Assembly (NCBI RefSeq): GCF_001953305.1
Contig: NZ_MTFE01000010.1
Location: 2,682,284 to 2,746,283, forward strand
Direction of reading: 5' to 3'
Origin: Cnuella takakiae
Lineage (GTDB): Bacteria; Bacteroidota; Bacteroidia; Chitinophagales; Chitinophagaceae
DNA: 64,000 nucleotides
Every line of letters begins with the position of its first letter. Position 1 is the stretch's first letter. Of the stretch, positions 8,573 through 47,846 are shown in pieces. The notes under the pieces were generated by a model. It had not been told where the DNA came from. It ran no database searches and was given only the letters and a program-made list of their open reading frames with translations. A program made the translations under genes and the position numbers.

Positions 8573-8992
8573 ATGAGGGGAGAAGGTCCTAGGTGTGTTG
8601 TTTTTTATGCTAGTAGAGATGAGGCAAATATTCAATGCTTCCAAAACCATTTGCAAAAAGTATATCCAACCATTAAAGTGATAGCTGTTTCGGACGGAAC
8701 TGATGCTGTAAAGTACTTTTCCACGGGTGAGGATCAACATGAAGTTCCATGCCTTATTATTATGGATGTTGTTATGCCATCCAAAACAGGGATAGAAGCT
8801 TTGGAAGAAATAAGAAGGCATCCAATACATTGTTATACACCTGCTGTTTTGATTTCCAAAGCACCATTTCACTACGAACATGTTGTTGAAGAAAAACTCA
8901 AAGCTAAACTTGTAATAAGGCCTAATTGCGATCAGAAAAAAAAGGAGTTAATAAAAGATGTATTTACTTCTTTTTGTCCCGGAATCTGTTAA
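8573..8992 (+). CDS. Degenerate single-domain receiver protein
   Basis: A 139-residue CheY-like receiver with no output domain. The phospho-acceptor Asp is kept (IIMDVVMPS, D65). The acidic pair that holds Mg2+ is replaced (VVFYASRDE, where the paralogues read VVEDD or MVEDD), and the conserved Lys is Arg (VIRPN). Such receivers often cannot be phosphorylated normally and may instead bind a partner constitutively. It is the first of three receivers in this block, upstream of the convergent histidine kinase at 12155-14056. Its A+T content is higher than that of the phage structural genes. Confidence 0.75.
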   Translation: MRGEGPRCVVFYASRDEANIQCFQNHLQKVYPTIKVIAVSDGTDAVKYFSTGEDQHEVPCLIIMDVVMPSKTGIEALEEIRRHPIHCYTPAVLISKAPFHYEHVVEEKLKAKLVIRPNCDQKKKELIKDVFTSFCPGIC

Positions 8993-9129
8993 TACAGTTT
9001 GTAGTTACTGGTTTGAGCTAGCATTGCTAGGCTTGGTACTTTGGGGAACAATGAAGGGTAGAAGGTGATGGAAGATGCCTACTAGCATTTACCTGCTTCC
9101 AGATGGTAACAATTATTTCAGCACCTAAC

Positions 9130-9357
9130 CTACCGATCCAACCAGCCTTGGATAAAGTGGGCGACTGCAACGGACCGGATATGTGATTGCTGGGAAATGC
9201 ACTCTTTCTCTGATATAGGTGCACTTAAATCGTAAAGAAACTGCTCAGCACATCCATTTTCACTTAGGATGTTGAACTCATAGATGTGATTGGTTAACCA
9301 GGAGACTTGTACCTGATCCTTTCCTTCGCGGAGTGTAAAAGTATATGGCAGCAGCAT
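9130..9357 (-). CDS. Small hypothetical protein, opposite strand
   Basis: A 75-residue frame with convincing protein character: strands such as PYTFTLREG and DQVQVSWL, then IYEFNIL and a C-terminal helix (HIRSVAVAHFIQGWLD). It looks like a small alpha/beta protein of the kind found scattered in Chitinophagaceae genomes, but I cannot name a family. It is transcribed away from the hairpin element at 9479 and lies between two receiver genes. Confidence 0.6.
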   Translation of the reverse strand: MLLPYTFTLREGKDQVQVSWLTNHIYEFNILSENGCAEQFLYDLSAPISEKECISQQSHIRSVAVAHFIQGWLDR

Positions 9358-9429
9358 GATGGCTGAAAATATAAAAATAATGCCGGCCCTTGCCAGGATT
9401 TACTTTCTCTTTAGTTCAAATCACGCTTT

Positions 9430-9475
9430 GTAGTACAACTACTACCCGGCATGTCAAGTAATACTACCATCTTTG
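9430..9475 (+). promoter_or_regulatory. Promoter-like block with GTAGT-N6-ACTAC dyad
   Basis: A dyad GTAGT (9430-9434), six bases, ACTAC (9441-9445) precedes a -7-like CATCTTTG (9468-9475). The same arrangement occurs at 11614-11659. Aligned without gaps over 48 bp, the two blocks share 37 bases, and both dyad arms and the -7 element are identical. The other copy has a good -33 TTG; here that position reads CCG, so this copy may be weaker or need an activator. The dyad is a candidate operator. Confidence 0.5.
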
Positions 9476-9478
9476 AAT

Positions 9479-9543
9479 CTGCTTATACCCGTAAGCAGTT
9501 AGTTTTGGTTGCGGGCCCTGTTTCCACAGGGCCTTATTTTTTG
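9479..9543 (+). ncRNA. Two-hairpin RNA-like element, copy 1
   Basis: Hairpin A has a 7-bp stem CTGCTTA/TAAGCAG (9479-9498) with a 6-nt loop. A conserved linker follows (AGTTAGTTTTGGTTGCGG). Hairpin B has a 7-bp stem GGCCCTG/CAGGGCC (9514-9533) with loop TTTCCA, then TTATTTTTT, as in a rho-independent terminator. Two related copies lie at 10840-10902 and 11664-11727. The element begins a few bases after a -7-like motif, so a transcript of about 65 nt ending here is expected. It also precedes the receiver gene at 9584 by 41 bp, so it could instead be a leader attenuator. Confidence 0.5.
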
Positions 9544-9583
9544 CCCCTCGCATCGGTATGGCTTTTGTAATGCTTTTCCCTAT

Positions 9584-10006
9584 ATGGACAACGGCTTACC
9601 CTTTTCTGTTTTGATGGTTGAAGATGATGAGGACGATCGTGCGATTATTGATGAGGCTTTTCTTGACCTTCATTTTGCTCAAGAAGTAAAGAAGTTCAAA
9701 GGGGGCAAGATGCTCCTCGACTACTTAAGCAAAATTGAACCTAACCTTTACCCATCGTTAATTATCCTGGACAGTTCCATTCCTGGAATGGATGGACTGC
9801 AGATCCTTAAGTTGCTAAAGGAAAATCCAAACTACAATCAAATTCCCGTTCTCATAGTAAGCACTTTTATCTCTCCGGCAAAACAGTCGGAGTTTGTGGC
9901 TGCAGGTGCTTATGGCTGCATTCAGAAAGGGAACAACTATGATGAAGTGATAAGGATGGCCGAAAAAATTAAAAACATTTCACAAAGCAATGTGCCAAGG
10001 CTGTAA
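9584..10006 (+). CDS. Single-domain response regulator (receiver)
   Basis: A 140-residue CheY-like protein. It has the full set of receiver residues: acidic pair in MVEDDEDD (E13, D14), phospho-acceptor D63 in LIILDSSIPGMDG, T94 in VST, and K115 in CIQKG. There is no output domain, so it passes phosphate or signals through protein contact. The frame is open 25 codons upstream, across the terminator hairpin, but the ATG at 9584 (MDNGLPFSVL) starts the domain correctly. A likely partner is the PAS histidine kinase encoded at 12155-14056. Stand-alone receivers beside PAS kinases are common in Bacteroidota but unusual inside a prophage. Confidence 0.88.
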   Translation: MDNGLPFSVLMVEDDEDDRAIIDEAFLDLHFAQEVKKFKGGKMLLDYLSKIEPNLYPSLIILDSSIPGMDGLQILKLLKENPNYNQIPVLIVSTFISPAKQSEFVAAGAYGCIQKGNNYDEVIRMAEKIKNISQSNVPRL

Positions 10007-10027
10007 GGACTGGCGCTTTGAGAACAC

Positions 10028-10150
10028 TTATTTCTTTATTCGATCTCCTAAAGCCCCGCCAGCACCACTACCTCTTTTCTTCCCTTTGTTTGGCTGGTTC
10101 AACAGCATCCCCCGGCACCTCCGGAAAGGGCGTAAAGAGAGGAGGTGTAA
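10028..10150 (-). pseudogene. Remnant of a copy of the 11717-12103 gene
   Basis: Read on the minus strand, this stretch gives MLLNQPNKGKKRG followed after a few residues by LGDRIKK and a stop at 10028-10030. The intact gene at 11717-12103 ends MLLNQPNQRKKGEG...LGDRTKK and stop. Upstream, the DNA still matches (ACCTCC..., CCTTTCC, CCGG), but no N-terminal coding part remains. It is a truncated duplicate lying directly after a receiver gene. Confidence 0.6.
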
Positions 10151-10193
10151 ATTTTTACTGCAACTTTACGGAGGCAATCTTCACCTTTACGTC

Positions 10194-10254
10194 ATGGTTT
10201 CCCTTGGCACAGATGTAAGGGCTGTTGCAATGGCCGCACAATGTTATTGAGATT
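10194..10254 (+). pseudogene. Remnant of a copy of the 11259-11462 gene
   Basis: The sequence begins ATGGTTTCCCTTGGCACAGA, matching the start of the gene at 11259 (ATGGTACCCATTGGAACAGA). After about 30 bp it jumps to TGGCCGCACAATGTTATTGA, matching that gene's end (TGGCCGCACAACGTTATTGA). The middle of the gene, roughly 140 bp, is missing. This is an internal deletion of a duplicated small gene, 50 bp before the receiver gene at 10304. Confidence 0.6.
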
Positions 10255-10303
10255 GGTGGAGCGTAGGGAAATAGGGCACTTTTTTTAATATTCGTAGGCA
10301 AAA

Positions 10304-10732
10304 ATGAACAAAATGACGAAAGGACCAATAGTAATTGTAGAAGATGATGAAGATGACCGGGAAATTTATGCAGAGGCTATAAAGGAGCTAGGGATCACAA
10401 ATGAATTGATCTTTTTTGAGAATGGCCAAAAGGCCCTTGAATACCTATCTGAAACAGAAGACCAGCCATTTATTATCATTTCGGACATCAATATGCCAGT
10501 GATGAATGGATTGGAGCTAAAAAAGCAAATTCAAGATGACTCCTACCTCAGTGCAAAAGGTATCCCTTTTGTCTTTATATCCACCAACTCCTCCAACGTG
10601 TCTGTTCGTCACGCACATGCTTTAAGTGTCCAGGGGTTCTTTCAAAAGCCACTCAATATTACTGATTGGAACTTGGCACTAAGAACCTTATTTAACTATT
10701 GGGGGTTATGCAAACACATAAATAACACCTAA
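10304..10732 (+). CDS. Single-domain response regulator (receiver)
   Basis: A 142-residue CheY-like receiver with all key residues: E13/D14 (IVEDDEDD), phospho-acceptor D61 (IIISDINMPVMNG), T94 (FIST) and K115 (FFQKP). A second ATG three codons in is an alternative start. It has no output domain. Its closest relative in the window is the host receiver at 59264-59697, which shares PIVI(V/I)EDD, SDINMP.(L/M)NG and QGFF.KP, rather than the prophage receiver at 9584. That suggests exchange between phage and host receivers. Probable partner: the kinase at 12155-14056. Confidence 0.88.
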   Translation: MNKMTKGPIVIVEDDEDDREIYAEAIKELGITNELIFFENGQKALEYLSETEDQPFIIISDINMPVMNGLELKKQIQDDSYLSAKGIPFVFISTNSSNVSVRHAHALSVQGFFQKPLNITDWNLALRTLFNYWGLCKHINNT

Positions 10733-10839
10733 AAGCCTGCACTAACTACCAACTTGCTTTGCAAGAAGGATGTTGACTAATTAAAGATTGAAGGTTAAAA
10801 GGTGTTTACATATTATTTTTCCCTTTTCCTCTGAAAATT

Positions 10840-10902
10840 CTTACTCATTTAAGCAGTTAGTTTTGGTTGCGGCGCTGGTTTCTACCGGAACTTATTTTTT
10901 TG
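10840..10902 (+). ncRNA. Two-hairpin RNA-like element, copy 2 (weaker)
   Basis: The linker TAAGCAGTTAGTTTTGGTTGCGG is shared exactly with copy 3 (11664-11727). Hairpin A is reduced to CTTA/TAAG with a 6-nt loop CTCATT. Hairpin B keeps the loop TTTCTA and the T tract (TTATTTTTTT), but only four inner pairs of its stem remain (CTGG/CCGG with one G-T pair), plus an outer G-C. The upstream GTAGT dyad is not present. The copy looks decayed. It lies 84 bp before the small gene at 10986. Confidence 0.4.
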
Positions 10903-10985
10903 CCCTGCCGTCAAAGCGACATTATTAGACTCCGCAACTTTACGGATGTAAAATCTACATTTGTGCGAAATACGTATCTGCCGAA

Positions 10986-11195
10986 ATGCAATACCTGATT
11001 AAAACACACCCAGCATATCCTACACTCACACCAATTTTGCAGGAGATAGCAGTTTCACCTTCTTACCTGGAATGGCTGCAAACCTTATTAAATATAGCTA
11101 GGCGTGACACGGATGCAGCTTTGCGGACAATAGCTGAAAACCAGCATGTAAACCCAGTTGTAAAAGTGATTTACTCAGATATTGTAAGAGCCTAA
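10986..11195 (+). CDS. 69-residue hypothetical protein
   Basis: A short helical protein (EWLQTLLNIARRDTDAALRT) without recognisable motifs. It follows the second hairpin element and precedes another small gene by 63 bp. Amino-acid composition and lack of competing frames make it a plausible gene, but no function can be suggested. Confidence 0.5.
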   Translation: MQYLIKTHPAYPTLTPILQEIAVSPSYLEWLQTLLNIARRDTDAALRTIAENQHVNPVVKVIYSDIVRA

Positions 11196-11258
11196 ATGGG
11201 CAGTGGTATATAGGGTTTATTCTAACGCTTGCTACTCTTTGACCAGTACCTTCGCTCC

Positions 11259-11462
11259 ATGGTACCCATTGGAACAGAAGTAATCCTCAACAAAGACATC
11301 TTGGAAGAATCCGACCGTAAGCAAAATTTCTTCGTCTACGAGCGCTACATAAACGGAAAAATATCAGGAAAGGTTAAGAGCCATGAGCCGGATGGCCGTA
11401 TATGGGTGACCTTCCCGGGCAATGGCCTGTTGCTGTGGCCGCACAACGTTATTGAGATTTGA
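11259..11462 (+). CDS. 67-residue SH3-like small protein
   Basis: Starting at the ATG at 11259 (a TTG lies ten codons earlier), the product reads as a chain of beta strands: GTEVILN, FFVYERYINGKISGKVK, RIWVTFPG, LLLWPHNVIEI. This resembles a small SH3-like barrel, though no family is certain. A deleted copy of this gene lies at 10194-10254, where the shared first and last codons flank a gap; that supports the ATG used here. It is followed by a clear terminator at 11488-11516. Confidence 0.65.
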   Translation: MVPIGTEVILNKDILEESDRKQNFFVYERYINGKISGKVKSHEPDGRIWVTFPGNGLLLWPHNVIEI

Positions 11463-11487
11463 CCTTAACCCAGCAGCCCGCATAAAG

Positions 11488-11516
11488 CAAAGCCCTTCAA
11501 AACTGAAGGGCTTTTG
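11488..11516 (+). terminator. Rho-independent terminator
   Basis: Perfect 8-bp stem AGCCCTTC/GAAGGGCT with loop AAAACT, flanked by AAA before and TTT after, 26 bp past the stop at 11462. Confidence 0.8.
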
Positions 11517-11613
11517 TCGTTTTGGTTACGACCTCATTTAATTTGGAAAGTATCACGCCGAATTAGGCGCACTAAAGTTCATCAATATTGGGCTAGAAAC
11601 AAATTTTTGTTCT

Positions 11614-11659
11614 GTAGTTCAAATACTACTTGAATTGTCAGATACAATTACCATCTTTG
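11614..11659 (+). promoter_or_regulatory. Promoter with GTAGT-N6-ACTAC dyad
   Basis: GTAGT (11614-11618), six bases, ACTAC (11625-11629) sits right against a -33 TTG (11630-11632). A 19-bp spacer leads to CATCTTTG (11652-11659), one base off the Bacteroidota -7 consensus TAnnTTTG. The matching block at 9430-9475 shares 37 of 48 bases, with both dyad arms unchanged. The dyad's place next to the -33 element suggests an operator. The promoter points at the hairpin element that starts about 5 bp downstream. Confidence 0.6.
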
Positions 11660-11663
11660 AAAA

Positions 11664-11727
11664 GCTTATTCATTTAAGCAGTTAGTTTTGGTTGCGGTCC
11701 CGGTTTCTACTGGGACCTATTTTTTTG
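11664..11727 (+). ncRNA. Two-hairpin RNA-like element, copy 3
   Basis: Hairpin A: GCTTA/TAAGC (11664-11679), loop TTCATT. After the shared linker comes hairpin B: an 8-bp stem GGTCCCGG/CTGGGACC (11696-11717), loop TTTCTA, then TATTTTTTT. Compared with copy 1, the stem bases differ but still pair, and the 6-nt loop lengths are kept. That is the signature of a structured RNA. No plus-strand gene follows; the next gene is convergent and its stop codon touches the hairpin. This copy therefore argues for an independent RNA of about 65 nt rather than a leader. Confidence 0.55.
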
Positions 11728-12103
11728 TCCGGTCCCCAAGGTTTGGCCCGCCACCTTCACCTTTCTTCCGTTGGTTAGGTTGATTTAAAAGCATTCGCGC
11801 CGGTAAATCAGGAAAGGTTGATGGAGGTGGAGGTGGGGGAGGTGGGCCCGCCAAATGATCTTCAATGGCTTTGCATACTTTGGCCAGTGCCTTTTCATCC
11901 TTCACTTCGCCTTCAACAACTTTCCAAGTGAGTGGCTTTTTCTTGAGCCCTCTGGCCATGAGCATCGGCCGGTTACTTTGCAGAACCACAACCTTGGTGC
12001 CTGCAGTCAGGCGCCAGCGCTCAAAGGATTTGTCCTTACCTGACAACTCCACATCAAAGCGGAAGGTGTAGATGCCATGGGTTATATTGAGGGGGAAGTG
12101 CAT
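11717..12103 (-). CDS. Hypothetical protein with polyproline linker
   Basis: A 128-residue protein. The first 90 residues look like a small folded domain (strands GIYTFRFDVEL and TKVVVLQ, then a helix KVCKAIEDHL). Eight consecutive prolines follow, then a Gly/Lys-rich tail. A truncated duplicate of the tail is found at 10028-10150. It lies 51 bp downstream of the histidine kinase gene on the same strand, so the two may share a transcript. It could be a small partner or substrate of the signalling module; no family is recognised. Confidence 0.65.
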   Translation of the reverse strand: MHFPLNITHGIYTFRFDVELSGKDKSFERWRLTAGTKVVVLQSNRPMLMARGLKKKPLTWKVVEGEVKDEKALAKVCKAIEDHLAGPPPPPPPPSTFPDLPARMLLNQPNQRKKGEGGGPNLGDRTKK

Positions 12104-12154
12104 GCCTGTGCTATCAATTAATTCAATTTAAAAGGGTGTGCAATGCAAGCATTT

Positions 12155-14056
12155 CTACTCATCTTCCGTTGGCAGCAGAATTTTAAAGGTTGATCCTTCA
12201 CCCGGCGTGCTTTCTGCCCAAATGTAGCCGCTATGGTTCTCTACAACTTTTTTGACAATGGATAAGCCTACTCCAGTACCACTGTATTCTGCTTTTCCAT
12301 GGAGCCTTGTAAACACATTGAAGATTCTTTCGGCATCCTCCTGGTTGAAACCTATACCATTATCACGCACTTCCAACAGGTGGTATGCTTTCCCACTTTC
12401 ATTCAGCGGCAAGTCTGATTTAACCTTGCCCCCAATAACAATCTGGGCGTTGATATTTACTATTGGTTTTTGGCCAGCTTTGCTATATTTTATGGCATTG
12501 CTGATCAGGTTTTGAAACAGCTGCTGAAACTGCCTACGATTTCCTTTTACAATTGGAAGGGCGCCCACATTGATAATTGCATGCTTCTCCTGTAACTCTA
12601 GCTCAAGATCTTCCAAGACAAGTTGCATCTTTTTCTTTAGATCAATTTGTTCCACCTCGATCACCCCTTCAGCTACGTGGGAATAAGCAAGCAGGTCATC
12701 AATCAGGGTAGACATGCGCTTACTTGCCCTTTCAAGTTTTTCAAACATGCGGAAGTCTTCGCCGTCCATTTTTTCTGCAAGCCGCACCTTAAGCCGATCA
12801 GAAAAGAAATGAATCTTCCTTATTGGCTCCTTCATGTCGTGGGAGGCTGCATAGGCAAACTGCTCCAGGTTTTTGTTTGATCGGTCGAGCTCCTCTACTT
12901 TTTGCTCAATTTGGAATTGCAATTGCTTGATTGGTGTGTAATCCGTAAAGGTGACAAGCAATCCCCCATCAAAATGGGTACACTGAATGTCTAGCCAGGC
13001 ATCAATACCTTCACTCTTATAGTGGAAATCAAAGCGATTCGGCCGCTTTTTTTCAAAAGATGCTTTGTAAATATCAAAGAGCCCATTTGTAAGGTAGGAG
13101 GTGAAATACTTACTTGCCAACTCGCCTTTAAGTGCTTCCGGATCTTGGTTAACATAAGCTGCAAGTGCTTTATTGACCACGTCAAAACGAAAGTCAATGA
13201 CCTCGCTTCTTTCATTGCACACCGGTTCCAGGGTAAAAATTCCAGATTGGGTTCTGTTGATAATATCCTCCAATTGAGCAGATGAGCGCTCCATTGCGAG
13301 TTGTGCATTTTTGATGGAAGTGATGTCTGTGAAGTTGTGGATCAGCCGGTTTTCATCCATTCTTGATACGGTTACCTCCAGCCACCTGTTTGTTGGCAAC
13401 AGGTTATATTGGGTAATAAAGGCCTCGCCTGTATCCAGCGTATGCAGGCATTTTTTATAATAAGAAGATTGCAGGAAGCCTGGGTCTATTTCTCCTCCAG
13501 TTTTTGAAAGGTAAATGTCTTTGGAAATACCAGTAAGCTTTAGAGCCGCATCGTTTACAGTGATAGTCCGAACATCTACTACCTGGCCCTGTTCGTCCCT
13601 GACGGCCTCTCCGACGGTAATTCCATTAGAAGAATAACGCAGAAGGTTATCCATAAACCTCTTTTGTTCTTCCATCTGTTGTATCAATAGGTGCTCTTCA
13701 GTACGATCCTGGAGCACAGTGAGCACACCACCACTAACCTTGTTCCGGGTGTAGCTGTAATACCGGTTTAGGTCAGGGTTGTTTATCCTTGCGATTGTTT
13801 TTTTTCCAGTTGTATAAACATTCAGCAACTCGCCAATGAGCTTCTTTCTAGACTCTTGATTGGATATAACAGGGCTACAGGAAACATATTTGCCTATTAT
13901 CTGTTCGGGTGTAATCCGGGTATATTCATAAAACTCTAAGTTGCAGTATCTATATTCAAAGTCGGTAATCTCTCCGCCTTCGTTTGTAACGGGTGTCATC
14001 CAAAAAGCAGGCTGAGGCATGAGGGCAAATAGGGTATCGGCCAAGTTTTCTATCAT
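12155..14056 (-). CDS. Triple-PAS cytoplasmic histidine kinase
   Basis: A 633-residue sensor kinase. Three PAS-like domains occupy about 5-120, 130-250 and 260-375. They lead into a HisKA dimerisation helix with phospho-acceptor H406 (AASHDMKEP). The ATP-binding HATPase_c domain follows, with N box (QNLISNAIKYSK), G1 (RDNGIGF) and G2 (GTGVGLS). No membrane helix is seen, so it should sense an internal cue. There is no attached receiver; the phosphate would go to the single-domain receivers encoded nearby (9584-10006 and 10304-10732). It is transcribed against the phage operons. A complete sensor kinase between the replication and packaging genes of a prophage is rare; the cue is unknown. Confidence 0.9.
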   Translation of the reverse strand: MIENLADTLFALMPQPAFWMTPVTNEGGEITDFEYRYCNLEFYEYTRITPEQIIGKYVSCSPVISNQESRKKLIGELLNVYTTGKKTIARINNPDLNRYYSYTRNKVSGGVLTVLQDRTEEHLLIQQMEEQKRFMDNLLRYSSNGITVGEAVRDEQGQVVDVRTITVNDAALKLTGISKDIYLSKTGGEIDPGFLQSSYYKKCLHTLDTGEAFITQYNLLPTNRWLEVTVSRMDENRLIHNFTDITSIKNAQLAMERSSAQLEDIINRTQSGIFTLEPVCNERSEVIDFRFDVVNKALAAYVNQDPEALKGELASKYFTSYLTNGLFDIYKASFEKKRPNRFDFHYKSEGIDAWLDIQCTHFDGGLLVTFTDYTPIKQLQFQIEQKVEELDRSNKNLEQFAYAASHDMKEPIRKIHFFSDRLKVRLAEKMDGEDFRMFEKLERASKRMSTLIDDLLAYSHVAEGVIEVEQIDLKKKMQLVLEDLELELQEKHAIINVGALPIVKGNRRQFQQLFQNLISNAIKYSKAGQKPIVNINAQIVIGGKVKSDLPLNESGKAYHLLEVRDNGIGFNQEDAERIFNVFTRLHGKAEYSGTGVGLSIVKKVVENHSGYIWAESTPGEGSTFKILLPTEDE

Positions 14057-40171: not shown

Positions 40172-43018
40172 ATGCGCCTCCTTACTACCATCCTTCTTCT
40201 TTTTGGCCTCCACAGCCAGGCTGCAACTTATTATGTGAGCTACTGGGGCAGTGCAACAAACAGCGGTACCAGCCCTACATCGCCATGGACATTAAGTAAG
40301 GTTTCTTCCGAGATTGCAAAAACCTCAGGCAACATCTTTGGCGCAAGTGACAGTGTACTATTCCGCCGAGGAGAGCCGGCATTGTATGGAAGTCTTTCAA
40401 TTGGCAGGTCCGGTGGCAGCCTGTCTGCACCGCTATACTTTGGTACCTACGGATGGGGAAGCCAGCCGGTAATTAGTGGCTTTCGGAAGGTGGAAAGCTG
40501 GGAGGAGATCAGCCCCAATATCTGGCGCAGTACTCTTGCGGTGAGTGGCTTGAATACTGCCCACATGGTTACTGTACGGGGTGAAAACACGCCTATGGGC
40601 AGGTACCCGAATGCAGATGCCGCTCGTTATGGATGGCTTTTCATAGACGCGCATCCAGCCGGCAGCAAAACAACTCTGTATGATACTGCCCTTTCTGCCT
40701 CACCCAATTGGACAGGTGCAAGGCTTGTTTCAAAAGGGCAGCGGTGGTCAAGTGACACAGGCACCATTACCAGCCATACGCATGATGGATTCAGGTCAAC
40801 GATTGTAACCAGCGGCCAGGAGTACGAAATGCGCAACAACTGGGGCTATTATATTCTGAATCACCCTGCCACCCTTGATCAGCAGTGGGAATGGTGGTAC
40901 AATGGAGCCTTTGACAAAAAGCTATGGATGTACAGCACCTACAACCCGGTAGGTGACTCGGTGAAGATCGCAACGGTTGATAATGCTTTGTCCATTGCCG
41001 GCCGCTCTTACCTGAAGTTCGAGGACCTGGTGTTTGAAGGGCCCAATTTGGATGGTATCTCCTTTTCAGGAACCTCCACTTTCAACACCTTTGACAGCGT
41101 TACTGTTCGCTACTGCGGTTCCAAGGGTGTTGACGCCATGCAACAGGCGAACGTTTCTGATATCACCTTCATTGACTTCACTGCTATCGATTGCCAGAAC
41201 TTCGGCATAGACGCAAACAGCACGGGTAGCAGGTGGACCCTGATCCGGCCCCTAACAAAGCGCATAGGTTTGTTTTTCGGCATGCAAGGGCAAGAGCAGG
41301 GAGGTAGCATGATGACCGGCATACGCTTACGTGGCGGCGTTGGCGGCCATTATATAGGAGGTGCCCGCGTGGACTCCGTTGGGTGGGCAGGTATAAGATT
41401 CAACTCACGTAACTGCCTTTTTGAAAACAACTTCATCACCAACTTTGCCATGCGCAATGATGATGTTGCGGGCCTGTACACGTTTGATTCTACCAGCAAG
41501 GAAGGGACAATTGTCAGGTACAATTTTGTTGATGGCGCAGGTGTATACCCAAGCTTTCAAGGAACCGAGTTTACTGCAAGCCGTGCTGCTTATGGTGGAT
41601 ACACTGATGATGGAAGCGGCGGCAGGCCGGGAAACCCCCTGAGGTTTTACGGTAATGTATTTACCAACTGCAGCCGGGGTGGCTTTTACCTGCACAATAA
41701 TCACAACATTGAATTTACGGGCAACTTCCTGGTAGGGAACGGCAGTTCGCAGTTGAAACTGGAGAACGATGCCAACGTTATAAATACCGCAGCTGCACTG
41801 GCCTTCAAGTTGGACGATTCCACCAACAACCTGGTGATAAAAGGCAACCTCTTTGTTTCCTACAGTGAAACTGATCTCATTGCATACTTCCGCACTCTTT
41901 GGGACGATACGGCTGTGATCAGGAAGTTGGATGAGCCAAGGGGAACGGACCGTTTTTTCAACTCCGGAAACAATATTGATTCAAACTGGTACATACGGCC
42001 TACATCACTGGATGCCGAACTGATCAACGTTATATGGAACTGGCGGAAGGTGGGCAACCCAGCAGCAAGCGAAAAAGCCAGGGACTACAGCCTGTCACAA
42101 TGGAGCACACTGTTCGGCCATGATAAAAACAGCCGCGGAGCTGTACTGAAATTTGCAGCTGGAACACCCATCGCAAGCGCCTTCCGCTTTATCTATAATC
42201 CAAATGGGAAGGATAGCAACATTGTGCTTCCGCGGAGCTACATGCGGCATAATGGCGAAGTGATCAGTGCCGGCCCGATGAAGTTGGGTGCTTATGAGTC
42301 TATGGCGCTCTTCGTATATGATCCGCCGCCGAACGTGCGGCCGCCGGCTGGCTATGCCGGTGTGATCCCTCTAAAACACCGTAGCACCACAGGCAATGCC
42401 CGGAAAAAAAGCCTTGCATCAGGTCCGGTGCTGCTAAAGCTCCGACCCGTCATTCCGGAAAATGGCGTATTGTACTCCGAGGAGTTTGATAATCCGGTAT
42501 GGAGCAAAACAAACGTTCCCATTACTGCCAATGCAAGCACAGCGCCTGATGGCACCACAACCGCTGACAGGGCCACAACACTCATCAACACCAGCAGCAA
42601 GCATATTGTCCAGGGTACTGCAACAGTAGCGGGCAATAACTACACCTATGCGGTTTATGTAAAAGATGTGAACCGCAGGTACGTGCAGCTCTTCCTGGGC
42701 AACAGCGGTTTCGGCAGCCAGGCCTTTGCCAACTTCGACCTGCAAACAAGCACAATCACTGCCTTTGGCTCATCCCTGATCGATAAAGGAATTGAGGATG
42801 CGGGAAGTGGCTGGAAGCGCATTTGGATCACGGCGCCCGCTACCACTACCCAGGTGAGTGGTGTAAACAACACCATAGGTCTTATACCCAGTGGAACACA
42901 TCCAAGGGCGGGCGGGTACACTACAGATGCGGCATACAGCGTCGATCTGTGGGGCGCCCAGTATAATAAAGGGTACAAGCAGGATTATGTTCTAACTACT
43001 TCAACGACTGTGCAATGA
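40172..43018 (+). CDS. Exported beta-helix protein, tailspike-like
   Basis: A 948-residue protein with a signal peptide (MRLLTTILLLFGLHSQAA). Residues about 20-600 carry a right-handed parallel beta-helix: YYVSYWGSATNSGTSPTSPW, typical of pectate-lyase-like proteins, then many short turns (GISFSGTSTFNTFDSVTVRY, FENNFITNFAM, FYGNVFTNCSRGGFYLHNN). After a linker at about 700-760 comes a carbohydrate-binding-like domain (VLYSEEFDNPVWSKTNV, NYTYAVYVKDVNRRYVQLFL). This layout is known for phage depolymerases that cut surface polysaccharide and for secreted polysaccharide lyases. The catalytic residues cannot be identified by eye. Confidence 0.8.
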   Translation: MRLLTTILLLFGLHSQAATYYVSYWGSATNSGTSPTSPWTLSKVSSEIAKTSGNIFGASDSVLFRRGEPALYGSLSIGRSGGSLSAPLYFGTYGWGSQPVISGFRKVESWEEISPNIWRSTLAVSGLNTAHMVTVRGENTPMGRYPNADAARYGWLFIDAHPAGSKTTLYDTALSASPNWTGARLVSKGQRWSSDTGTITSHTHDGFRSTIVTSGQEYEMRNNWGYYILNHPATLDQQWEWWYNGAFDKKLWMYSTYNPVGDSVKIATVDNALSIAGRSYLKFEDLVFEGPNLDGISFSGTSTFNTFDSVTVRYCGSKGVDAMQQANVSDITFIDFTAIDCQNFGIDANSTGSRWTLIRPLTKRIGLFFGMQGQEQGGSMMTGIRLRGGVGGHYIGGARVDSVGWAGIRFNSRNCLFENNFITNFAMRNDDVAGLYTFDSTSKEGTIVRYNFVDGAGVYPSFQGTEFTASRAAYGGYTDDGSGGRPGNPLRFYGNVFTNCSRGGFYLHNNHNIEFTGNFLVGNGSSQLKLENDANVINTAAALAFKLDDSTNNLVIKGNLFVSYSETDLIAYFRTLWDDTAVIRKLDEPRGTDRFFNSGNNIDSNWYIRPTSLDAELINVIWNWRKVGNPAASEKARDYSLSQWSTLFGHDKNSRGAVLKFAAGTPIASAFRFIYNPNGKDSNIVLPRSYMRHNGEVISAGPMKLGAYESMALFVYDPPPNVRPPAGYAGVIPLKHRSTTGNARKKSLASGPVLLKLRPVIPENGVLYSEEFDNPVWSKTNVPITANASTAPDGTTTADRATTLINTSSKHIVQGTATVAGNNYTYAVYVKDVNRRYVQLFLGNSGFGSQAFANFDLQTSTITAFGSSLIDKGIEDAGSGWKRIWITAPATTTQVSGVNNTIGLIPSGTHPRAGGYTTDAAYSVDLWGAQYNKGYKQDYVLTTSTTVQ

Positions 43019-43710
43019 TATATAAGCAGCTAACCATTGCACAACTGTCAGCGGCTTTAGGTTGGTCAATCATCTTTTTGTATGGCCTGGTGAAGTGCGT
43101 AAAGGACTTCAAAGAGGTTAAGGAGTCCATCCTGTACTGCTTCACCTATATAAAAACCGTATGGCTGTGGACGGTTAAGAAAATGATGTGGCGCAAGCAG
43201 TTTTCCGAGCTTCTGGTGGGCCAAAAAATCCTACTTGAAAAGATCAGCATTGAACAAGAAAGCATAAAAAAGGAGCTGGCCTACAATGGCGGCAGCTCCA
43301 CGAAGGATGCCGTGCGCAGGATTGAAAACACCCTGGCCCTTGTGCAGGATGTGCTGACAGAGAATAAGGCCCTAAGGAAGGCGCAGGAGCTATGCAGCGC
43401 ACAGATGGTGTTCAGGATGGATGAGCAGGGGGCGTGCATATTTATCTCCGATGCATTCCTGAAGTTCTTTGCCTGCCAGTTGAGCGAGGTGCGGGAGTTT
43501 GGCTATGAGAACCTGGTGCATGAAGAGGACCTGTTGGAGATGCGTTCCAAATGGAACAAGGCAATCAGCACAAAGACGGCATTCAAGGATGAGCAAAGGA
43601 TAAGGCATGGCAACTCGGGCAAGTACTATACGGCTTTCGTGCAGGCACACCCCGTGATCATCGCCGACCAGCTTAAGTACTTCTACGGAACCATTGAAAT
43701 CGTAAACTAA
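43015..43710 (+). CDS. Membrane protein with PAS domain
   Basis: A 231-residue protein whose ATG overlaps the previous stop by 4 bp. It has one membrane helix at about 12-30 (LGWSIIFLYGLVKCV), a coiled-coil-like linker (about 60-130) and a C-terminal PAS fold at about 130-231: QMVFRMDEQGACIFISDAFL, FGYENLVHEEDLLEMRSKW, DEQRIRHGNSGKYY. No kinase or other output domain is attached. In the lysis cassette next to the holin, it might sense a small molecule or redox state and control lysis timing. That role is a guess from context. Confidence 0.8.
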   Translation: MIYKQLTIAQLSAALGWSIIFLYGLVKCVKDFKEVKESILYCFTYIKTVWLWTVKKMMWRKQFSELLVGQKILLEKISIEQESIKKELAYNGGSSTKDAVRRIENTLALVQDVLTENKALRKAQELCSAQMVFRMDEQGACIFISDAFLKFFACQLSEVREFGYENLVHEEDLLEMRSKWNKAISTKTAFKDEQRIRHGNSGKYYTAFVQAHPVIIADQLKYFYGTIEIVN

Positions 43711-44884: not shown

Positions 44885-45490
44885 ATGAACCTTAGCCAAT
44901 TCACCAGCCTTGTGCAGATACCCAACGAGCAGGAGTGGGGCACCCATTTTCTACCGGCACTGGCAAAGTATGAAATCAACACGCCTCTGCGTCAGTCTTA
45001 CTTCTTTGCCCAGATCCTGCACGAAAGCATGGGCCTGACCCAGGTGGAGGAGAATCTGAACTACAGTGCAAAGCGCCTGGTGGAGGTCTTTCCTAAGTAC
45101 TTCGCCAATATCGGTGTAGCCCACCGGTACGCACACCAGCCCGAGAAGATCGCCAACCGGGTGTATGCAAACAGGATGAAGAACGGCAACGAGTGGAGCG
45201 GTGATGGTTACAAGTTCCGCGGCCGTGGCCCCTTGCAGATCACCGGTAAAAGCAACTACACCGCAGTAAGCAAAACGCTGCTTGGTGATGACAGTTTTGT
45301 CGATGATCCGGATTTGCTGCTGCTGCCGAAGTGGGGCGCCATGGCTGCCTGTTGGTGGTGGGACAATGCAGGTTGCAACCAGCTGGCAGATGACAGGCTT
45401 TTCAAAGCAGTAACAAGGCGCGTGAATGGTGCGTTGAATGGTTACAGTGACCGCCTCAAGTGGCTGGCCAGGATCAGAGCGCTTGCTTAA
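44885..45490 (+). CDS. GH19-type endolysin
   Basis: A 201-residue enzyme of the glycoside hydrolase family 19 (chitinase/lysozyme-like). SYFFAQILHESMGLTQVEEN holds the two catalytic Glu residues (E47 and probably E56), and EENLNYSAKRLVEVFPKYF and RGPLQITGKSNY are typical of phage endolysins of this family. CWWWDNAGCN supplies the aromatic core. It cuts peptidoglycan glycan strands. No signal peptide is seen, so release depends on the holin. The gene-free hairpin array starts about 30 bp after its stop. Confidence 0.9.
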   Translation: MNLSQFTSLVQIPNEQEWGTHFLPALAKYEINTPLRQSYFFAQILHESMGLTQVEENLNYSAKRLVEVFPKYFANIGVAHRYAHQPEKIANRVYANRMKNGNEWSGDGYKFRGRGPLQITGKSNYTAVSKTLLGDDSFVDDPDLLLLPKWGAMAACWWWDNAGCNQLADDRLFKAVTRRVNGALNGYSDRLKWLARIRALA

Positions 45491-45523: not shown

Positions 45524-46263
45524 GCCCTGGCATTCTTGTTTGGGCTTTCCTATTTGGGCAGGGTTATTGTTCCTTAGAAAGAAACTTCTTAGTTTCATAC
45601 TTTGGACGCCCCTGCTTTCTAGTAGGGGCTCTTTTTTTGGCAAAAAACTTGTTCAAAATAAAATAGAAACATTTTGTGTAATCCACGTTTTTCTATCGCC
45701 CTGGCAGTCTTGCCGGGGCTTTTGTTTGGCAAGGTGATTGATAAAACCCTAACGATTGATCTAATACATTCTTTATGGCGTTGCCCCTGTTTTCCAGCAG
45801 GGGCTTTTTTACGTTTTCTAAGATTGATACCTTTGTCCAAGAGTTCATTAGGAGCTCGTTTCGTTTAAGGCTCCTGTGTCTACAGGAGCCTTTTTTAGTC
45901 AGTAAGCTTGTATTCTAGCTTTATAGTTGGGGTAGATAATTTTCGAATTTTGCCCTTGCATTCCAGTAGATGCTTTTTTATCTTACTATTATCTTCTGCT
46001 TTCTAGTAATACGCGGCCCAGGCATTCTTGCCAGGGCTTTTCTTTTGGCAAAAAGATTGTAATTCCTTTTCCATCACAATCGCATAAACAATAGTACACG
46101 CCCTGGCTTTCTAGCCGGGGTTTTTTAGCTAAACTATTGTGAGGGACTTAATACACCTTATTACATTTTTTTACAGATTGCCCTTGTTTCCGCAAGGGCA
46201 TTTATATTTGACTTGGTAAGTAAATTTATGAATAAGGGTGAAGCCCCTGCTTTTCAGCGGGGC
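45524..46263 (+). repeat. Array of about ten terminator-like hairpins
   Basis: Between endolysin and integrase, hairpins follow at 45524-45545 (weak), 45608-45629, 45698-45719, 45783-45804, 45869-45890, 45952-45973 (decayed), 46016-46037, 46100-46121, 46180-46199 and 46243-46263, with a half-lost one near 45993-46014. Distances between starts are 84, 90, 85, 86, 83, 64, 84, 80 and 63 bp. Good members have a 7-8 bp stem of the form GCCCCTG.../...CAGGGGC, a 6-nt loop (TTTCTA, TTTCCA, AGTCTT, TGTCTA, ATTCTT, TTTCCG) and a T tract on the plus strand. After three of them (45608, 45698, 46016) the sequence TTTGGCAA...TTG is shared. Stem bases differ between members while pairing is kept. No reading frame runs through the array. 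Confidence 0.8.
45828..45897 (+). ncRNA. Possible short RNA unit in the hairpin array
   Basis: TACCTTTG at 45828-45835 matches the Bacteroidota -7 element exactly. A transcript starting about 45841 would run 50-57 nt to the perfect terminator GGCTCCTG/CAGGAGCC (45869-45890, loop TGTCTA) and TTTTTT. Within this RNA, AGGAGC at 45850-45855 could pair with the GCTCCT of the terminator's left arm, which would break the terminator. It is the best promoter match of the array; other units have weaker ones. Confidence 0.4.
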
Positions 46264-46337
46264 ATTTTCTTTTCATACAGTACCTTGCACTCGTGCACCA
46301 GTACCATTACTAGGGGAGAGGGTGTACAAATAAAGGA

Positions 46338-46390: not shown

Positions 46391-47662
46391 TTAGAAGGCG
46401 TTGTTTGCCCGCTTCAGCCGTTCGTGCTCCCGCTGTTTTCTTGAGTGGTCATATATCGAAACAACCATTGCAGTTGATGTATGGCCAGCTTGCTGGGCAG
46501 CTGCTTCATCGCCAAGGCTGTCTACCAGTTCGGAAGTGTTGCCATGTTTCAGCGTGTAGAAATCTGAGGTAATACCCAGCGGTGATTTAACCCACCGGCG
46601 CCAACGCTTATCAATCTGGTCTTCACGGATCATGGCCGGGCCAGGTACTAACCTACGGCTGAATACATAGTCATCAGGGAGGGCCTCTTTGATCTGTTCC
46701 CGCCACAGCGGCACAGCGATGTTCTTGATGGTTCGCTCCTGGTACTTGTACAGACCTCCTTTTTTAACCAGCACCCGGTAGGTCTGGTTGATGAGGTCCA
46801 CATCCTTCACCTTCATAGCCAGCAACTCCGTACGGCGGCCGGAGGAGTGGAAGAAGATTTCCACGAACCTGCCAAAAACAGGGTTTTCCTCCGCCAAATG
46901 TGTCTTGATCCGTTTGCGCTCTTCTTTTGTCAATACCTGACGCACCTCTTTTGCCACCTTCCTTTCTTCCACATCTTCGCCAGTGATTGGATTGTGTTTA
47001 ATGGCGCCATACTTTTTGAGCACTTTGAACGCCAGCTGCAGATTAGCCCGGTACCGGTTGTACTTCGCATCTGAAAAGGGGCCGGGCTTGGCCTTGTTGA
47101 CATATGTCTTTTCACCCAGTCGGTTGATCACCTTCCATTCTTTTTGCATGCCGTCCAGAAGGGCTACAATGTGATGCGACTCAACCTCCTGTATTTCCAT
47201 GATGTCCATGCGAAAGTGGCGGAGGGCAGGTAATACGTAGTTTAAGACGCAACGCAGATCTCTTCTGGTGCTGTCAGCGCCTTGCATCTTTTCCATCGCC
47301 ATAAGCAGGGCTGTATCAAATGGCGTATCGCGGGGGATGGTTATAACCAGGGCAGGGGTAGCAACTTCCTTTTTTACTGGGTGGTAACTCTCCCGTGTCA
47401 GCATGTGCACAGTGTCTTCAATCAGGAACTGTGTTGCAGCCTGGCGCTGTTTCAGGTCCGTGTATTTGTTCATGGACTGGATGGTAACCTGTTTGGGTTT
47501 CACTTTACCAGTCTTTGGATCAGTAATCTTTGGATCGTAGAACCGGTAATGGATGCGCCAGGCTTTGCGGATGCTTGCCTTTGCTGTTTTCCAGTTGTCA
47601 GGTGTGACAGAGGGGTAACTGCACCAGCAGCCGCCAGAGAGGAAGAGTTTTTTGGGTTGCAT
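46391..47662 (-). CDS. int: Tyrosine-type integrase of the prophage
   Basis: About 423 residues from the ATG at 47662 (MQPKKLFLSGG); an ATG at 47704 would add 14. The central SAM-like domain is followed by a catalytic domain with the first Arg in SSGRRTELLAMKV and the nucleophilic Tyr in HTSTAMVVSIYDHS near the C terminus. The usual H-x-x-R box reads YTLKHGNTS, so His is Tyr and Arg is Lys, a variant known from many Bacteroidota integrases. The gene lies next to tRNA-His, pointing away from it, as expected for an enzyme that recombines the phage into that tRNA. Confidence 0.88.
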   Translation of the reverse strand: MQPKKLFLSGGCWCSYPSVTPDNWKTAKASIRKAWRIHYRFYDPKITDPKTGKVKPKQVTIQSMNKYTDLKQRQAATQFLIEDTVHMLTRESYHPVKKEVATPALVITIPRDTPFDTALLMAMEKMQGADSTRRDLRCVLNYVLPALRHFRMDIMEIQEVESHHIVALLDGMQKEWKVINRLGEKTYVNKAKPGPFSDAKYNRYRANLQLAFKVLKKYGAIKHNPITGEDVEERKVAKEVRQVLTKEERKRIKTHLAEENPVFGRFVEIFFHSSGRRTELLAMKVKDVDLINQTYRVLVKKGGLYKYQERTIKNIAVPLWREQIKEALPDDYVFSRRLVPGPAMIREDQIDKRWRRWVKSPLGITSDFYTLKHGNTSELVDSLGDEAAAQQAGHTSTAMVVSIYDHSRKQREHERLKRANNAF

Positions 47663-47767: not shown

Positions 47768-47771
47768 CTAG

Positions 47772-47846
<75 letters not shown>

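Follow-up and report, generated by a model that had tools for sequence, protein, structure and literature searches.

The Qrr small RNAs (sRNAs) of Vibrio are under sigma-54 control and have a length of about 100 nt. They are several related short RNAs with a two-component regulator and are encoded by four to five genes at separate places, as described in part of PMC4211561. The same part describes OmrA/OmrB, PrrF1/PrrF2 and AbcR1/2 as tandem sRNA genes in two copies, of which OmrA and OmrB have common ends and distinct middle parts. In Listeria, LhrC1-5 are five related sRNAs, each with a promoter of its own, which are activated by the response regulator LisR; contacts with mRNA are made by C+U-rich unpaired parts of these RNAs, among them the loop of the terminator (PMC5880928, in part). 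GibS of Bacteroides thetaiotaomicron, ~145 nt long, combines a conserved, unpaired 5′ part and an intrinsic terminator, with promoters of the TAnnTTTG type, the Bacteroidota housekeeping promoter word (passages of PMC7366714); the word 'tandem' is absent from the main text of that paper on the intergenic sRNAs of this organism. For Flavobacterium psychrophilum, sections of PMC9723704 describe three PF00158 proteins and the motif SM4, which represents -24/-12 sigma-54 promoters in Bacteroidota, one of them tested by mutation; the promoters described there precede protein genes. No sRNA family of Chitinophagaceae, and no prophage array of the form given below, is described in the titles and abstract openings listed in searches of the open-licence literature.

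The window, that is the whole stretch of 64,000 nucleotides of Cnuella takakiae DNA analysed here, has an array of ten plus-strand hairpins at 45524-46262, flanked by a phage endolysin and an integrase. Judged from its sequence, the array is probably a tandem row of sibling small-RNA genes, several of them predicted to be transcribed from sigma-54-type promoters. It would work like Qrr or LhrC, to which it is likened by description and not filed as a member of either. Several related short RNAs under a two-component regulator and sigma-54 would be the points of likeness to Qrr, but the array is in tandem, on a prophage, and its units have differing leaders and a predicted length of ~60 nt. The predicted sigma-54 control differs from the LisR control of LhrC1-5, and there are ten units rather than the two of the known tandem sRNA genes. 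In contrast to OmrA/OmrB, the units share a 3′ hairpin type and differ in the 5′ leader. Units of the array resemble GibS in the features listed above, although they would be less than half as long, and unlike the SM4 promoters, those of the array would precede sRNA-type units. The features of the array and its prophage are as follows.

45524..45545, plus strand: hairpin 1, with an internal mismatch and a weak T tract (-9.6 kcal/mol)
45555..45569, plus strand: sigma-54-like word TGGGCA-N6-TTG for unit 2, 8/9 fixed bases; predicted start 45581, 27 nt before hairpin 2
45608..45629, plus strand: hairpin 2 with T tract (-16.3 kcal/mol)
45637..45651, plus strand: sigma-54-like -24/-12 word TTGGCA-N6-TTG for unit 3; predicted start 45663, 35 nt before hairpin 3
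45698..45719, plus strand: hairpin 3 with T tract (-17.2 kcal/mol)
45726..45740, plus strand: sigma-54-like -24/-12 word TTGGCA-N6-TTG for unit 4; predicted start 45752, 31 nt before hairpin 4
45783..45804, plus strand: hairpin 4 with T tract (-15.1 kcal/mol)
45828..45835, plus strand: exact -7 box TACCTTTG, 33 nt before hairpin 5
45867..45892, plus strand: hairpin 5 with T tract, 11 bp with flanks, 8-bp core at 45869-45890 (-18.1 kcal/mol)
45896..45910, plus strand: degenerate sigma-54-like word, 7/9, near the same place of the spacer (word scan of spacers)
45952..45973, plus strand: hairpin 6, broken stem (-2.7 kcal/mol)
45989..46012, plus strand: relic of a further unit (CTGCTTTCTAGTA), common to array a of the chromosomal region L020 (sequence comparison)
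46016..46037, plus strand: hairpin 7 with T tract (-13.5 kcal/mol)
46045..46059, plus strand: sigma-54-like -24/-12 word TTGGCA-N6-TTG for unit 8; predicted start 46071, 29 nt before hairpin 8
46060..46099, plus strand: leader of unit 8, conserved with L020:15020-15059 (86% over 83 bp including the word; z 11.5)
46100..46121, plus strand: hairpin 8 with T tract (-16.2 kcal/mol)
46125..46139, plus strand: degenerate sigma-54-like word, 7/9 (word scan of spacers)
46179..46200, plus strand: hairpin 9 (-13.7 kcal/mol)
46203..46210, plus strand: exact -7 box TATATTTG, 31 nt before hairpin 10; the same word lies 32 nt before hairpin a4 (L020)
46227..46277, plus strand: core of unit 10, leader end and hairpin 46242-46262; 81-86% identical to family C in 10/17 other genomes of the genus
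44885..45490, plus strand: phage endolysin, upstream of the array (phrog_181, E 7e-74)
46391..47662, minus strand: tyrosine integrase, convergent on the array (PF00589)
47771..47845, minus strand: tRNA-His; 47771-47816 (46 bp) recurs exactly at 6.7 kb to the left of the window, the two being the inferred attachment sites
9470..9545, plus strand: family A unit in the same prophage, near 9512 (hairpin model and leader)
10835..10904, plus strand: family A unit in the same prophage, near 10869 (hairpin model and leader)
11655..11729, plus strand: family A unit in the same prophage, near 11694 (hairpin model and leader)

The original prediction of about ten hairpins at 63-90 bp was borne out. The hairpins start at 45524, 45608, 45698, 45783, 45869, 45952, 46016, 46100, 46179 and 46242, with start-to-start spacings of 84, 90, 85, 86, 83, 64, 84, 79 and 63 bp. 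A stable fold was obtained for nine of the ten (-9.6 to -18.1 kcal/mol), the exception being the broken stem at 45952; hairpins at 45524 and 46016 contain an internal mismatch and that at 46242 is shifted. The loop of 6 nt, described earlier as conserved and near TTTCTA, matched N[T/G]TC[T/C]N in 9/10 hairpins, and in eight the first and last loop bases are T-A or A-T, which leaves a tetraloop. Between hairpins 6 and 7, the hairpinless relic has its CTGCTTTCTAGTA at 45996, identical to 45612-45624. Covariation was analysed in 17 hairpins, nine from the array and eight from L020, with those at 46242 and L020:3808 omitted. Changes on both sides were seen at all nine model pairs and 91.5% of the cells pair, as had been claimed for stems of differing sequence. 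None of 500 shuffles reached any of the five measures, a generous control because the 17 hairpins are related and were chosen as hairpins; for the same reason the covariation backs the structure and by itself says nothing of function. Hairpins with a T tract were also located by script on the plus strand of the 64 kb, and seven of the 17 found lie in the array's two 1-kb bins. The row of hairpins is more than chance.

The -24/-12 consensus of sigma-54 is YTGGCACGRNNNTTGCW, with GG and TTG(C) blocks and 6 nt between GGCA and TTG. The shared TTTGGCAA...TTG, noticed earlier after three hairpins, is present after hairpins 2, 3 and 7 (TTGGCA at 45637, 45726 and 46045) and reads as TTGGCA-N6-TTG, with the spacing of a sigma-54 -24/-12 promoter. 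GGCA-N6-TTG also follows hairpin 1 (45557). The word is thus found in only 4/9 array spacers, once without the T before GG, and some units have no visible promoter. In the 811-bp array the plus strand contains four occurrences and the minus strand none, compared with a mean of 0.093 and a maximum of 2 in 1000 dinucleotide shuffles. The nine array spacers were then pooled with nine from three L020 clusters. The exact TTGGCA-N6-TTG was present in 6/18 spacers (0.02 in 500 shuffles), at least 8/9 bases of it in 7/18 (0.29) and at least 7/9 in 12/18 (2.58). All six exact words are 6-7 nt behind the stem, and the seven spacers with GGCA-N6-TTG have ~32% identity to one another in the 30 nt after the word; the exact words may descend from one duplicated unit and are in that case not independent events. 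With the start placed ~12 nt downstream of -12, the predicted sigma-54 starts of all four array units precede the next stem by 27-35 nt. The base after TTG at these four sites is T or A, not the classical C.

The original prediction had read the spacers as carrying -33/-7-like words. Its two words TACCTTTG (45828-45835) and TATATTTG (46203-46210) are exact, but the main promoter word of the array is predicted to be sigma-54-like -24/-12, not -33/-7. Exact TAnnTTTG was counted in 3/10 spacers against 0.75 in shuffles (p 0.027). Two of these boxes are 31 and 33 nt from the stem, and the third, just 6 nt from its hairpin, is useless for that hairpin. When one mismatch was allowed in the -7 box no excess was seen (7/10 spacers, 7.0 expected). 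Taking both types together, a promoter word suitably spaced for use precedes hairpins of units 2, 3, 4, 5, 8 and 10 (6/10). Two sigma-54 genes (2 x PF04552) are present in the genome, and the second (C1:4359782-4361317) adjoins a sigma-54 activator gene. PF00158 activator matches number seven in the genome, three of them strong and one of the three beside the second sigma-54 gene; as the control genomes all match PF00158, the four weak matches were not counted.

When the rest of the genome was searched with the array by BLAST, four further matches were returned, at 5.151 and 5.163 Mb; three include spacers (73, 75 and 86%) and one is a 27-bp hairpin match. The region concerned, L020, has three chromosomal clusters that resemble the array in form, namely cluster a of five hairpins, cluster b of four and cluster c of three, the last being a family A unit (see below), plus a pair; each is one-directional. 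Response regulators and, by eye, decayed genes are found in this region, and genes that by eye resemble response regulators and PAS kinases lie beside the clusters (L020:15297-17198). By eye, ~110 bp (GTTCGGAGCGGATAG...) occurs twice, next to cluster b and again next to cluster c (L020:8808-8918 and L020:14775-14893), which suggests that the region around them has been rearranged. The hairpin covariance model (R1) was built from the C. takakiae genome, which favours that genome in counts, and gave 92 hits there at E up to 10. Of these, 88 were classified and the weakest four omitted (4060602, 2649529, 5156476 and 4385595; E 1.48-7.63). GGCA-N6-TTG is near 12 of the 88, ten of the 12 being in arrays or the nearby pair. 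At E up to 0.01 with stricter filters, 61 hits were obtained here and 40 in the next of 58 genomes. The search of genomes with such a model had been proposed as a check; it returned at least one hit in 55/58 genomes.

Some R1 hits outside the array carry repeated leaders, and these were sorted into families A-E. Family A (TTTCTCATAAGCAGTTAGTTTTGGTTGCG and hairpin) has 13 copies in the genome by the sorting rule applied. Three are in the prophage, adjoined by its single-domain response regulators and PAS histidine kinase (window 8573-14056). The 23-mer of leader and stem was found in at least 114 stretches of named genomes. The 80 loci listed (L282-L361) are titled Chitinophagaceae or their genera, Chitinophagales, Sphingobacteriia/-ales or Bacteroidetes; of these, flank length left 73 for the leader and stem counts and 72 for the promoter-word count. 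At the nine positions before the 23-mer, 69-73 of the 73 loci agree, and conservation is far lower further up. In the stem 610/612 cells pair, with 68 distinct sequences and three stem positions fixed by the search word. GGCA-N6-TTG lies 45-75 nt upstream of the core in 44/72 loci, and over 300 nt the 10-nt bins outside 50-69 nt contain 0-4 words. The next base at the 46 sites is C in 21, T in 15, A in 8 and G in 2. Of the 13 copies in C. takakiae, just one has the word at a distance of up to 120 nt. Family A is a candidate short conserved RNA gene, widespread in Chitinophagaceae. Pairing of family A with start codons followed by AGA AAA was considered and rejected, as the 12-mer complement occurs once in the genome, at the place of the sRNA itself; the complement has a match in 22/24 genomes. 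This was the one target proposal examined, and no target of the units came to light.

Family B (GCAAGCAATCGTTAG and hairpin) numbers nine by a loose rule, and seven have the same 15-nt leader core (C1 1423144, 4606340, 4063496, 3378327, 1383194, 4567171 and 2420789); copies with the core are also present at L262-L265 of genome G005. Most family B units contain the five-codon frame ATG GCA AGC AAT CGT TAG. Family C (GGTTTCGTATGGTTAAGGGTGAAG and hairpin) has one copy in the genome outside the array. Unit 10 of the array matches family C, hairpin included, at 11 places in the genus genomes. In 8/10 family C loci with ORFs listed, a putative hybrid histidine kinase ORF (read by eye) ends upstream. 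A second hairpin unit with TGTCCTAAT follows family C by 83-131 nt in 11/13 loci read (L090-L100, L059:10311 and L260); a tandem pair is thus conserved in the genus, and the ten-unit row is its extreme form. The palindrome TTTCNNCGAAA is seen upstream of the pair in 8/11 of the loci L090-L100. Families D and E have two copies each. In Rfam, no family but tRNA scored above the gathering threshold for the window, L020, L055 and L090-L100; weak hits, for example BTnc231 (25.5 of 80.4 bits), were discarded as chance.

The leaders of 24 units and of the five families were compared in 406 pairs, with three single-base-shuffled runs as controls. At z 4, 11/406 pairs passed (a3-b3, w8-c2, c3-A, b1-A, a3-C, a5-b2, w7-a1, a4-b4, c3-C, b3-C and b1-c3) and one in each shuffled run; the leader windows of a3 and b3 include part of the preceding hairpin, and c3 was already counted as a family A copy. 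Within the array of the window just units 7 and 8 pass. The leader of unit 10 alone (40 nt) gave z 2.7 against family C and z 3.0 against a4, and that of unit 9 gave z -0.95 against a3; units 9-10 match elsewhere by BLAST only with their hairpins included. Units 1-5 share the hairpin type and promoter words only. These scores suggest that the clusters hold several kinds of unit, some from dispersed families, and that most leaders of the window stand on their own.

The 46-bp exact repeat of part of tRNA-His points to a prophage of ~54.5 kb, from window position -6680 to 47816. Among ten proteins searched against PHROGs, portal, head, terminase, tape-measure, endolysin and integrase were named, and a viral record of 53,978 bp with an identical integrase is the same element. 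A PAS-domain protein is encoded among the late genes near the endolysin (43015-43710). No close relative of the phage was found in viral scans with integrase and endolysin or in an endolysin search of 195 genomes. Besides this prophage, the viral scan gave one endolysin relative (38%, L470), and integrase relatives were only distant (38-39%, genomes G009 and G022); no hairpin cluster is present at L470 or beside these integrases (L023 and L024). The array DNA had no match in the phage collection, and pattern scans of viral contigs revealed no second phage-borne array among the matches listed. A terminator-plus-promoter pattern matched 7/394 genomes of the family, with 3/9 matches in C. takakiae. 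With R1, no locus with three units within 500 bp on one strand was seen among the matches listed for 63 pattern-scan loci and for a set of 79 loci taken mostly from viral contigs, nor among the 80 family A loci. Four genomes of the genus have pairs at most, among the matches listed of 191. Clusters of three or more hairpins were seen in the C. takakiae genome alone.

Small proteins as the product of the array were rejected, since the crossing ORFs run through the hairpins, one overlaps the endolysin in another frame, and no coding sign was detected. A CRISPR array was likewise rejected, the repeats being too unlike (six 27-nt copies at 67-85% to the reference copy).

The original reading of the locus, a row of promoter-leader-terminator units making small RNAs, agrees with the short leader/terminator units, the recurrence of the form and the conservation of some leaders, and is limited by a promoter visible in some units only. 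In the proposed mechanism, each of ten head-to-tail units would comprise a short leader, rich in A+T, and a terminator-type hairpin at its end, with the sigma-54-type promoters directly behind the T tract of the previous unit. Transcripts are predicted to be ~55-65 nt, starting 27-35 nt before the stem and ending in the T tract. Triggering of a sigma-54 activator would turn on the sigma-54 units jointly, and two units would use a housekeeping promoter. The unpaired leaders, which differ between units, would base-pair with different messenger RNAs, as Qrr and LhrC do. Growth of the array would be due to units duplicating in tandem and decaying, and one or more of them are already broken.

The array could instead be a stack of terminators that stop late-operon transcription from the endolysin towards the convergent integrase, with functionless words between them. 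Its location between convergent genes and the T tracts on the late-operon strand fit this explanation, and so does the hairpin itself: of the 78 R1 hits classified outside the array, 28 follow an open frame of ~100 or more codons at a distance of 2-51 nt, which indicates that the hairpin is also the clade's ordinary terminator, in line with its presence in nearly all genomes searched. Ten terminators far exceed the need, however, and the genes on either side of cluster b, like those on either side of cluster c, are all in plus-strand orientation. Sigma-54-like words with exact spacing between the hairpins and leaders conserved between clusters are also not accounted for, and we consider this explanation unlikely. 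Stacked termination may nevertheless be a real by-product of the position of the array.

Dispersed near-identical copies, such as the family B places with one leader core (7/9), could point to a small hairpin repeat of the REP or BIME kind, mobile or amplifying and of no service to the cell in which it spreads. REP/BIME hairpins occur near a RAYT (Y1) gene, and the genome does have two Y1 transposase genes, but these are at 0.58 and 2.18 Mb, far from the arrays and with no R1 hit within 10 kb. The common direction of all units in a cluster, the leaders of families A and C conserved between species, and promoter words at near-constant distance make such a repeat very unlikely. Lower still is the probability of cis-acting leader or attenuator elements controlling neighbour genes. 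Some family A copies do adjoin response-regulator genes; the next gene downstream of the array is on the other strand, however, and at several of the 14 loci for which ORFs were listed the gene that a copy faces is opposite or unrelated, which leaves this explanation highly improbable.

A more far-reaching and rather unlikely extension of the sibling small-RNA reading is that the array would be a phage-borne, sigma-54-triggered multiplexed riboregulator, in which ~10 diversified guide-like RNAs are fired on one stress signal, built from an undescribed, Chitinophagaceae-wide minimal sRNA class. The form of the unit (TTGGCA-N6-TTG or TAnnTTTG, 25-35 nt, a C-rich stem, a TTTCTA-type loop and a T tract) would provide a marker for listing sRNA genes. 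A prophage with a row of such units would offer a system in which to study the takeover and diversification of host riboregulators by phages.
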